Shown here: positions 13,691 to 51,346 of the stretch, in pieces
Layout of the letters: each line of letters begins with the position of its first letter
How positions within the stretch are numbered: the first letter of the stretch is position 1
Assembly (NCBI RefSeq): GCF_020193575.1
Contig: NZ_JADYVD010000016.1
Location: 62,001-126,000 of the forward strand
Length of the DNA stretch: 64,000 bases
From: Ensifer sp. IC4062
GTDB lineage: Bacteria; Pseudomonadota; Alphaproteobacteria; Rhizobiales; Rhizobiaceae
Direction: 5' to 3'
The notes under the pieces: model-generated
Seen by the model: only the letters and a program-made list of their open reading frames with translations
What the model was told of the DNA's origin: nothing
Database searches by the model: none
Made by a program: the position numbers and the translations under genes

Positions 13691-13723
13691 ACCTAAAGAC
13701 CCAAGCTTGCGCGAAGGTGGTAT
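13691..13723 (-). promoter_or_regulatory. Shared flagellar promoter element upstream of flhA
   Basis: On the minus strand ATACCACCTTCGCGCAAG (13706-13723), 9-base spacer, then TTAGGT (13691-13696). Same layout as six other flagellar promoters in this window; the -10 starts 66 bases from the flhA ATG. Confidence 0.65.
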
Positions 13724-13736
13724 GAGGCGAAAATAA

Positions 13737-14003
13737 TCAGAATCCGGACTGGATCCGGGAGAAGATGATGTCGGTGAAGATGGAGATCTGTGCACCGACG
13801 AAGGGGGCGGAGACGGCGACTGTGATCATGACGGCCAGGATCTTCGGCACGAAGGTCAGCGTCATTTCCTGGACCTGGGTCAGGGCCTGGATGAACGCAA
13901 TGACGACGCCGACCACCATGGCGGCGAGGACGGCGGGACCGGAGGCCACGATCACCGTCCAGATCGCAGCCTGCACAATATCAAGGGCGTCCGCCTCGTT
14001 CAT
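13737..14003 (-). CDS. fliQ: Flagellar export gate protein FliQ
   Basis: Small membrane protein of 88 aa with two hydrophobic helices (about 15-40 and 50-75), normal family length, with the conserved ALTQVQEMTLTFVPK turn between them. Part of the FliPQR export channel. It is the last gene of the flgE-to-fliQ run, 7 bases after flgD. Confidence 0.95.
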   Translation of the reverse strand: MNEADALDIVQAAIWTVIVASGPAVLAAMVVGVVIAFIQALTQVQEMTLTFVPKILAVMITVAVSAPFVGAQISIFTDIIFSRIQSGF

Positions 14004-14010
14004 ACGGAAA

Positions 14011-14427
14011 TCACTTCACTTTGACGCCGGGACCGATGACGAGCTCCTTGCCCGTATCCAGAACGGCGATGATTCCGTCGGAGTATAGTTTCACCTCCTT
14101 GACGACGCCAGTCGTCTTGCCGTCGGCGCTGGTGACGGTCTTGCCGATCACCGCGTCCGCCTCGCTCAGCGAAGTGCGCTGCAGCAGGCTTTCGAGGTTC
14201 TTGTTGGTCTTGATCGTCTGCTCCACCTGGGAGAAGGTCGCGAGCTGTGCAATCTGCTGCGTCGCGTCCATCGGCTCGGTCGGGTCCTGATTCTTCATCT
14301 GCGCCACGAGCAGCTTCAGGAAGCTCTCGTAGTTCAGAGTCGCAGCGGTCGCGTCGTCCCCCGATTCCGTGGCCGAAACCGTCGGCGTATAGCCTGTCGA
14401 AGTCGAGCTGACGCCACTTACCGCCAT
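14011..14427 (-). CDS. flgD: Hook-capping protein FlgD, short form
   Basis: Hook scaffold of 138 aa. The N-terminal export and scaffold segment is clear: [23 protein letters not shown] followed by [18 protein letters not shown] (about 32-76). Enterobacterial FlgD is about 230 aa; this form lacks the tandem fibronectin-like C-terminal part and ends soon after an SH3-like hairpin ([19 protein letters not shown]). The short form is known from rhizobia. It overlaps flbT by 10 bases. Confidence 0.9.
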
Positions 14428-48635: not shown

Positions 48636-49495
48636 AACTTCAGCCCCCGTGCCGAATTCGACGCCCTGGACATGCGCTTGTTATCGCCGCCGACAGCCCG
48701 GCCGGACCCGATATTCACCGCCATCCGCAAATCAGGACGCGAATCAGTTCCTAAACTGTACATCGCGTCCGCGGAAAAACCACTGGCGCCATCCGGGCGT
48801 TTACTACGGCACTGGCCGATCAAATCCGTTGCGCGCACCTGCCCCGCGACTGATCAGGCACAGACGGGGGCCGAAAGGCGTCTATGGATATACCACATTG
48901 ATATCCAATATTTTTTTGTGCAATTGCGTTACCTCGACAAGTGACGAAGACGTGTCTTAGCCCGGATTCCCGCACGATTTTCTGGGCGCGCAGACCTGTT
49001 TTTTCGTCCGAACACTCTCAACGGATTAAAACTGGAACTTACTTTACGGTGATGTCTGTTGCCGAAATGCATCAATTCTGGCGCAGTCTGAGCCCCGGAG
49101 CTTAATGAATAGAAAACCACCAATTTTCCGCTCTATTTGGAATCTCCGAAACTATATTTGGAGAAAACTCAGAATTGAACATGGAGATCATCAGTAGATG
49201 CACCGCTGGCAGGCGCACCGATCGCGGCCTCGGAATCTATAAAGGTTGCTTTATTGTTAATTTCATGCCGAACGTCGCGGCTGAGACTCCGTTGGCGGCA
49301 GCGGATTCTTGATGCCGATTCCCGATCCGGTCGTCAATACACGCCGGACTCGGCCAATATTTTGGACAAATGCCACAATTCGCGTTCGGGACCTTTTGGG
49401 GGCGTGATGCGGGGCGGAGCCAATCCGCCGGGACAAAAAATCCCGCCACTCGGGCGGGATTTTCTGCGAACATCTGATGCCTTGCCGAACGGTCG
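48636..49495. promoter_or_regulatory. visN upstream region
   Basis: 860 bases between the visN start and the fliF stop, no convincing gene on either strand. The visN-proximal 250 bases are GC-rich. Then come an AT-rich part (48885-48945, with a run of seven T) and a 7-bp inverted repeat TGGATAT / ATATCCA (48885-48891, 48901-48907). A second AT-rich block is at 49020-49195. The fliF terminator lies at 49437-49463. Confidence 0.6.
49437..49463 (-). terminator. Rho-independent terminator of fliF
   Basis: TCCCGCC / GGCGGGA stem (49441-49447, 49453-49459), 5-base loop, flanked by AAAA and TTTT, 33 bases after the fliF stop. On the minus strand it ends in TTTTTT, a textbook terminator. Confidence 0.9.
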
Positions 49496-51169
49496 TCAGG
49501 CGGCGCGATCGAGGGCCCATTTGCGCAGGATCTTCGCCGCGCGTTCCTCGCTGATCTCCACCATGCGGGCAAGCCGCCGTTCCGGTCCTTCCTTGACGCG
49601 CCGGTTGAAGTTGCCCTCTTCGCCGAGGTTGAGCAGGTCGTCGGTGCTGTCGAAGCCGAAGTCCGCGCCGAAGCCTTCCATGAGGGCGCCCCCAGCACCG
49701 GCACCGACCGGCGAGAAGTCGGGTAGTTCGAGACCGGCGGCCTCGCTTTCCAATTGGCCTGCCTTTCCGCCGAAGCCCATCTGGCGGGCGAGCGGCCGCA
49801 TGCCCATCCAGACAACCAGGAAGGCGACGGCAACGAAAGCAAGCGAGTTGATGATGCCACCGAGATTGCGCGTCAGCATTTCCATGATGCCCGGACCGGC
49901 TACCGGCTGGTCCAACAGTTGAGTCTCGACGAAATCCATCGCGTTCAACGTGACGACGTCACCGCGGTTTGCGTCGACGCCAGCAGCCGACGAGACGATC
50001 TTCTGCATTTCCTGGAGATAGGCGTCGATCTTCGCCTGATCAGCCGGTTCTCCCACCATTGCCGCGAGGCGACCGCGGTTGACGACGACGGCGATCGACA
50101 GCCGTTCGATCGAATAGCTGTTCTTGACGGTGGCGATCGTCTTGCTGTTGATCTCGTAGTTGGTCTGCTCTTCCTTCTTTGCCGCCTCGTCGCTGGACTG
50201 CGGACCGGCGCCGCCGCGCGGTGCGGCCTGGGGCACGTTCTGCTGCACGGTTGCGGCATTGTCCGGCTGCTGCTGGCTGGACTTCTGCTCTTCCTTGGTC
50301 ACGCGGGTCGAGCGCTCGACACGCGACCCCGGGTCGAACACGGTTTCCTGGATCTGCTGCGCATCGGTGTTGAGCGTCGCCGTCACGCTCGTGCGGAAAT
50401 TGTCCATGCCGAGGAATGGTGCGAGCGCATTGTCGATCTTCTTTTCGAGATCCGTCTGGACATTCTGGACGACGCCGAGCGACTGGTTGAGCGCGCTGTT
50501 CGCCGGGTCATCGCCGGAGGCGAGAAGCTGTCCGGTCGAGTCCAGAATGGTGACGTCGTCGACATCGAGCCCCGGTACGGATGATGCCACGAGATGGCGG
50601 ATCGAGGCGGCGGCATTGCGGCCAACCGTTGCGCTCGCGCGAATCATGACAGACGCCGTCGGCGTCTGGTCGGCCTTGCGGAAGCTTCCACGCTCGGGCA
50701 TGACAATGTGCACGCGTGCGGCGGCGATGCCGGAAATCTGCTGAATGGTACGGGCAATTTCGCCCTCAAGCGCACGAACGCGTGTCACTTCCTGCATGAA
50801 GGAGGTGAGGCCTAGCGAGCCGACATTGTCGAAGAGTTCGTAACCGGCATTGGCGCTGCTGGGCAGACCGCGTTCGGCAAGCAAGAGCCGTGCCTTGCCG
50901 GTCATCCCCACCGGAACCTGGATGCTGCCGCCATCGGACCCGACATCGAAATCGATGTTCGCCTCGGCGAGCGCAATGCTGATTTGGGTCACATCGCTGC
51001 GCTCAAGGCCGACATAGAGCGTTTCATAGGAAGGTCTGTTGACGTAGATGCCGGCGGCAAGGACGAAGCCGACCGCGACGATGCCGGCCACGGCGAGCGC
51101 GATCAGCTTGCTTTGCCCCAGATTTCCGAGGTTTTTCGTGAACGTCGAGAATTGATCGAACAGATTCAT
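49496..51169 (-). CDS. fliF: MS-ring protein FliF
   Basis: 557 aa. Two membrane helices (about 23-45 and near 440-460) flank a periplasmic ring-building domain with YETLYVGLERSDVTQI near residue 50 and ERGSFRKADQTPTASVMIRASATVGRNAAASIRHLVASSVPGLDVDDVTI (the RBM3 region, split here). The C-terminal FliG-binding tail (EISEERAAKILRKWALD) is intact. I start at 51169 with GGAAACAGA upstream; the frame runs 14 residues further. Monocistronic between che and visN, with its own promoter element. Confidence 0.96.
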   Translation of the reverse strand: MNLFDQFSTFTKNLGNLGQSKLIALAVAGIVAVGFVLAAGIYVNRPSYETLYVGLERSDVTQISIALAEANIDFDVGSDGGSIQVPVGMTGKARLLLAERGLPSSANAGYELFDNVGSLGLTSFMQEVTRVRALEGEIARTIQQISGIAAARVHIVMPERGSFRKADQTPTASVMIRASATVGRNAAASIRHLVASSVPGLDVDDVTILDSTGQLLASGDDPANSALNQSLGVVQNVQTDLEKKIDNALAPFLGMDNFRTSVTATLNTDAQQIQETVFDPGSRVERSTRVTKEEQKSSQQQPDNAATVQQNVPQAAPRGGAGPQSSDEAAKKEEQTNYEINSKTIATVKNSYSIERLSIAVVVNRGRLAAMVGEPADQAKIDAYLQEMQKIVSSAAGVDANRGDVVTLNAMDFVETQLLDQPVAGPGIMEMLTRNLGGIINSLAFVAVAFLVVWMGMRPLARQMGFGGKAGQLESEAAGLELPDFSPVGAGAGGALMEGFGADFGFDSTDDLLNLGEEGNFNRRVKEGPERRLARMVEISEERAAKILRKWALDRAA

Positions 51170-51313
51170 TCTGTTTCCGCACCCAGTATCGCAAGGCGGC
51201 CAGCCGGTCATCCGGCGAGCGCCCTGCGCAGATCCAACATTTGGGTTCGCTGGGTATCGGCTTGCGCTTCAGCCGATGTCCAATACGCGCGAATCTACCA
51301 GCCCCGGATGAGA

Positions 51314-51346
51314 AGCTAGGCAGCGAAACTTGCGCGAACTTGACGA
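51314..51346 (-). promoter_or_regulatory. Shared flagellar promoter element upstream of fliF
   Basis: Minus strand TCGTCAAGTTCGCGCAAG (51329-51346), 9-base spacer, CTAGCT (51314-51319). It lies 144 bases from the fliF ATG. Confidence 0.65.

Follow-up and report, generated by a model that had tools for sequence, protein, structure and literature searches.

Escherichia coli PhoB, an OmpR-family activator, acts through the pho box, a pair of 7-base direct repeats separated by 4 bases (an 11-base period) that takes the place of the −35 hexamer and keeps a constant distance to the −10. In many rhizobia and related bacteria, Rem/FtcR proteins run flagellar assembly. For Sinorhizobium meliloti, the portions available of two papers report that Rem activates class II flagellar genes, downstream of VisNR, that rem mutants are nonflagellated (PMC8429497), and that its action on flagellar genes is believed to be direct (PMC4018554); no binding sequence is stated in those portions. 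Here we propose one, a two-part promoter element that precedes seven flagellar genes or operons in a 64-kb stretch of DNA (the window) from a Sinorhizobium/Ensifer assembly of 7,124,523 bases in 175 contigs. The element is real and conserved, and it is very probably a Rem activator site that replaces the −35, together with the core promoter, of class II flagellar operons, binding by Rem being what we infer.

The element resembles the pho box in its OmpR-family activator, its two 7-base repeats with an 11-base period, an apparently replaced −35, and a fixed distance to the −10. The word differs (CAAGCTT-like here and CTGTCAT in the pho box), and, on alignment, the box lies 3–4 bases nearer the −10. 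CtrA, another OmpR-family regulator, recognizes the word TTAA-N7-TTAA, which was not seen on inspection of the seven 33-base sites in the window. An OmpR-family regulator over flagellar promoters is common to both. The abstract of PMC6180460 describes CtrA-dependent flagellar promoters in other Alphaproteobacteria. The S. meliloti Rem regulon, as far as the portions of PMC8429497 and PMC4018554 go, has the same regulator, the same target class, and reported activation. Brucella melitensis FtcR appears to be a relative of Rem, a link that runs through the FtcR-like rem homologue of Azorhizobium. The excerpt of PMC9456535 calls FtcR a flagellar master regulator, has it bind upstream of fliF, and gives a chromatin immunoprecipitation (ChIP) motif, TGTGGGCA, from 118 of 363 peaks, with electrophoretic mobility shift assays at ftcR and betI. 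No flagellar DNA target shared by Rem and FtcR is stated in the excerpts of these three papers (PMC8429497, PMC4018554, and PMC9456535).

A doubled box at a fixed distance from the −10

The first-pass annotation of the window had listed seven 18-base sequences, each with a 9-base gap and a −10-like hexamer behind it. All were found as described: every 18-mer is present once, and the hexamer given for it begins after a gap of exactly 9 bases, with six elements on the minus strand and one on the plus strand. On the minus strand they precede flhA (13690..13723; fliR is next), flgE (19046..19079; doubled box at 19076–19059 and −10 TAGTGT at 19051–19046), a fliH-like gene (25455..25488), flgB (37881..37914), a DUF1217 gene followed by flgF and fliI (41606..41639), and fliF (51313..51346); the plus-strand element precedes motA (41664..41697). 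The flgE element starts 26 bases past the stop codon of rem. FlhA, MotA, FliF, and FlgB score above their NCBIfam cut-offs, and FlgE scores above the FlgEFG subfamily cut-off, with the FlgE models under theirs. The DUF1217 protein belongs to PF06748. Neither Pfam nor NCBIfam gave a match for the fliH-like protein, whose label is putative.

The pattern YRCGCAAG-N10-TA has six exact matches in the window, whereas 100 shuffles gave 0.26 on average and never more than 1. The six matches all belong to the set of seven sites; the seventh site, before the DUF1217 gene, reads TCA for TA (TCAG for YTAG) and has the lowest score of the set. A 33-column weight matrix built from the seven sites, a step that the annotation had proposed, set them well clear of the background, with scores of 29.2–34.4 compared with 16.3 at the next window position and at most 9.3 in the reversed window. 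With leave-one-out matrices, each site still scored 12.0–20.9, and 7 to 9 window positions reached the score of the left-out site, counting that site and the six training sites. No comparable site precedes the flagellin, chemotaxis, visNR, or rem genes in the matrix scan of this window. Across the 7.1-Mb genome, the strict pattern CANNNTYRCRCAAG-N10-TAG has five exact matches, all in the flagellar cluster (flhA, flgE, the fliH-like gene, fliF, and one inside flhB), and none in a backward control; allowing up to one mismatch gave 11 matches, 7 of them in the cluster, compared with 12 in the control.

We examined the spacing in 80 named rem loci of Rhizobiaceae and in 17 stretches from the order's other Rem-positive genomes (three from the same family), picking matches on columns 4–22 only and ignoring the −10. 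The 17 stretches gave 169 upstream-half matches (46 in reversed sequence). YTA stood 9 bases past CAAG in 48 of these, and the other offsets from 0 to 39 gave 0–7. In the Rhizobiaceae loci, YTA was at the 9-base offset in 207 of 431 matches (next highest offset, 21). The box therefore lies at a fixed distance from the −10, with its spacing peak at 9 bases.

The consensus of the 48 sites is Y(C/A)AGCYT-CRCG-CAAGNYT, then C-TA-NNN-T, a word written twice. Its 11-base period gave a lag-11 score that was reached in none of 2,000 column shuffles, and lag 11 was the only lag from 3 to 17 with excess self-similarity; the 48 sites carry the bias of the seven-site matrix, and the repeat itself was not a selection criterion. 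T occupies column 34 in 58% of them, so the −10 is better read as TAnnnT, shifted one base downstream from the hexamer of the annotation. No TTGAC-like word was seen in the −35 columns on inspection of the 48-site column table. Start sites are predicted about 7 bases after TAnnnT, which would put the box at about −37 to −20. The doubled word, the 11-base period, and the fixed distance to the −10 together give the layout of an OmpR/PhoB-family class II activator.

Rem and the distribution of the element

The flagellar cluster of the window holds structural genes, rem (19106..19777, minus strand), and two LuxR-type regulator genes with GerE domains (47142..48635, minus strand), which we take to be visR and visN, names that fit PMC8429497. 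Rem is an OmpR-family regulator of 223 amino acids, identical (100%) over all 223 residues to the Rem of S. terangae and three other named strains. Its winged-helix domain (PF00486) scores above the Pfam cut-off and its receiver below, and the DNA-binding domain is well conserved among orthologues. Whereas PhoB has an acceptor aspartate, the window's Rem lacks this mark of a phosphorylated response regulator and carries E at that position; 18 Rem sequences have E in 10, Q in 5, D in 2, and R in 1. Lack of the aspartate does not preclude a PhoB-like mode of action. Across 121 genomes from the order, each of which encodes several OmpR-family proteins, the best Rem scores, read by hand, exceeded 165 bits in 24 genomes and were below 90 elsewhere, a gap that sets Rem apart from other OmpR-type proteins. 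In each of two genomes (G085 and G045), a further Rem-like protein shares 44% and 43% identity, respectively, with the query and perhaps serves a second flagellar system.

The element is present with Rem and absent or rare without it. By hand tally, 13 of 18 other genomes with a Rem-type FliF carry exact matches no more than 40 kb from FliF, 23 in all, and 66 Rem-less genomes with FliF have a single exact match near FliF (in G094). Per-genome counts at this level were not above the backward control, and the difference lies in place only. CAAG-N9-YTA occurs 36 times in 669 kb of the 17 Rem-positive clusters and not at all in 399 kb of ten Rem-less clusters, which were picked by hand from the 66 for their long contigs, cover 20 kb on either side of FliF, and have a wider GC range. 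At the family level, 61 of 101 genomes contain exact matches to the strict pattern, 149 in total compared with 14 in the control (summed by hand): 147 compared with 11 in the 84 Rem-positive genomes and 2 compared with 3 in the 17 Rem-less ones.

Conservation was scored in the Rhizobiaceae loci with a matrix that leaves out the gene concerned, a score of 12 or more counting as a site. The flgE element is found in 76 of the 77 loci in which flgE was located (none in reversed upstream sequence), the flhA element in 79 of 79 (none reversed), and the fliH-like element in 66 of 80 (one reversed); over all 80 loci, 276 matches scored 14 or more, compared with 10 in reversed sequence. Most box columns and the TA are more than 80% identical, the upstream flanks mostly 30–60%, and the bases between box and −10 intermediate, in rows picked by the matrix, which favors its own columns.

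For the 17 order-level stretches, the threshold was the 99% level of the null. The first stretches of G085, G030, and G022 have no FliF, and stretches surrounding FliF took their place in the counts; the first stretches of G073 and G017 were dropped without replacement, and Rem-positive G107, G116, G120, and G068 lie outside the set. Sites above the threshold precede motA in 12 of 16, flgB in 12 of 16, and flgE in 7 of 16. The control genes had none: motB and motC (0/17 each), fliG, flhB, flgI, and fliP (0/16 each), flgK and fliI (0/15 each), and fliR and rem (0/13 each). Other genes with sites are one flagellin (4/16), flgF (2/16), and a 149-amino acid gene that follows flhB (4/9). In G085, G030, and G022, rem is more than 100 kb away or on another contig, and yet flagellar genes have sites above the threshold.

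Rem compared with other explanations

The first-pass annotation had placed the element over the −35 as the site of a class II activator, with Rem as the natural candidate. This is supported by the −35 position, the fixed spacing, the 11-base doubled word, and the co-occurrence with Rem, which fit an OmpR-family class II activator, Rem being the flagellar one, and by its confinement to class II-type targets in the window; these targets also agree with the class II genes in the available part of PMC8429497. With PhoB at its own promoters as the model for action over the −35, two Rem molecules would sit head to tail on the two 7-base words, usually 11 bases apart, stand in for the −35 hexamer, and keep the RNA polymerase sigma factor in place on a weak −10. 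Provided that the operons extend as their gene order implies, control by Rem would then reach the hook, basal-body, export, and motor genes.

The fixed spacing and recurring −10 would also be expected if the conserved words were the −35 and −10 of an alternative sigma factor class with no activator bound, and columns 6–11 do sit 17 bases ahead of the −10. We nonetheless regard this as very improbable: CGCAAG, the strongest word, is separated from TAnnnT by only 10 bases, less than a −35 element would need; a sigma factor has no need of the doubled upstream word; the excerpt of PMC12826043 states that no flagellum-specific sigma factor is known in Alphaproteobacteria; and the tie to Rem would require a separate reason. 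An indirect role for Rem, with the box bound by VisNR or a further OmpR-family protein, is very improbable as well. The visNR genes do lie in the same cluster, and there are several OmpR-family proteins per genome, but visN/visR were found in only 4 of the 13 FliF-cluster stretches searched for them (the stretches, not whole genomes), and the other 9 all have CAAG-N9-YTA sites. Direct repeats suit OmpR-family better than LuxR-type proteins. According to the available part of PMC8429497, Azorhizobium and Bradyrhizobium have rem homologues without visNR. A chance likeness of GC-rich leaders could draw on the common core of the box, a longer pattern being matched 58 times in the genome when one mismatch is allowed; the shuffles, the matrix, the spacing, the Rem-less clusters, and the Rhizobiaceae conservation counter it and leave it with next to no probability. 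For the seven as a set, though not for a weak site in motC described below, matrix scores and shuffles rule out a chance origin.

Several results weigh against a direct Rem site at all these genes. Orthologues of four targets were above the 99% null in few stretches (fliF, 3/17; DUF1217, 3/13; flhA, 5/13; fliH-like, 1/8), and in G064, whose rem lies on a separate contig, no site exceeds it. These uneven counts suggest that the target set drifts while the element stays. Exact strict matches are missing from 25 of the 84 Rem-positive family genomes, 15 of the 149 family matches are the single site inside flhB, and the strict pattern was itself devised after the sites of the window and of relatives had been seen. 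Looser patterns showed no excess in the window's genome: the longer one with up to one mismatch gave 58 matches compared with 136 in the control, and two further counts gave 13 (5 in the cluster) compared with 30 and 4 exact matches compared with 4; these counts were replaced by tests of position. The two CAAGTT copies of the window's fliF site lie 10, not 11, bases apart. Lastly, the FtcR motif of the PMC9456535 excerpt is unlike the box, and inspection of the seven 33-base sites gave no match to it.

Literature searches for a Rem regulon, Rem binding, or a Rem box in rhizobia found nothing, and no Rem box was evident by title or abstract among the matches listed. A Rem site may already be described by Rotter 2006, Leonard 2007, or Tambalo 2010. 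Of rhizobial papers, one yielded a CGCAAG passage, an entry in a table of RosR boxes (PMC4696191). The main text of the S. meliloti start-site paper PMC3616915 contains no “flagell,” fliF, or flgB, and none of the three de novo motifs described there is the box. The element is most likely the Rem box of class II flagellar operons, a known kind of switch whose target sequence, going by the literature examined, is newly read. A sharp box with a fixed −10 would make Rem's direct regulon readable from genome sequence, allows a PhoB-like mechanism to be tested concretely in a regulator mostly without a phosphorylation site, and calls the ChIP motif of FtcR into question.

Candidate sites within coding sequence and neighboring features

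A candidate eighth element lies in the 3′ end of flhB (46429..46462, plus strand; score 16.3, an exact strict match), 82 bases before the 149-amino acid gene (46544–46993, plus strand), for which 9 of the 17 other stretches hold a relative and Pfam gave no significant match. In the best 30 of the 83 genomes with FlhB, the site shows the strongest synonymous constraint in the gene, with a mean divergence of 1.43 bits compared with 0.29 against the gene's own codon usage; among 179 overlapping flhB windows, only one shifted by a residue is higher. Its codons are CAA in 30 of 30, GAT in 28 of 28, and TTT in 26 of 26, a choice that opposes constraint on the FlhB protein alone as the cause of the match. 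A weak candidate inside motC (22261..22294, minus strand) scores 11.7 in the window and up to 20.2 among the relatives listed. It lies upstream of fliK, an SLT-domain gene, and rem, and it falls on the gene's most constrained codons, with two testable residues, which makes it a lead.

The gene run headed by the fliH-like element continues in the same direction through motB, motC, fliK, and the SLT-domain gene to rem, so Rem may feed back on itself. Tentatively, and with more doubt than confidence, we suggest that Rem boxes also lie inside coding sequence, that the flhB box drives the 149-amino acid gene, and that the motC box, upstream of fliK and rem, forms with the fliH-like box a positive loop raising the supply of Rem once assembly begins; in that case, the motif published for Brucella FtcR would stem from a different mode of binding or from an indirect signal.

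About 250 bases separate the end of the fliH-like element from the predicted start of its gene (24552–25205, minus strand), leaving a long leader. An inverted repeat at 25486–25518 (minus strand), TTGGACCGCG...CGCGGTCCAA, adjoins the box, covers its first three columns, and is perhaps the end of the upstream flagellin transcript. The elements of the DUF1217 gene and motA lie back to back (41606–41697), with 32 bases separating their 27-mers; genome G151 has a similar pair 22 bases apart, ten fewer. A site at 60278 on the plus strand (score 6.1), between chemoreceptor and sugar-kinase genes, was dropped as background. The SLT (lytic transglycosylase) domain gene between fliK and rem (20049–20780, minus strand) may be the orf38 of the review PMC8429497. 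Adjoining the flagellin genes is a glycosyltransferase family 41 gene (29524–31503, plus strand), possibly a flagellin modifier.

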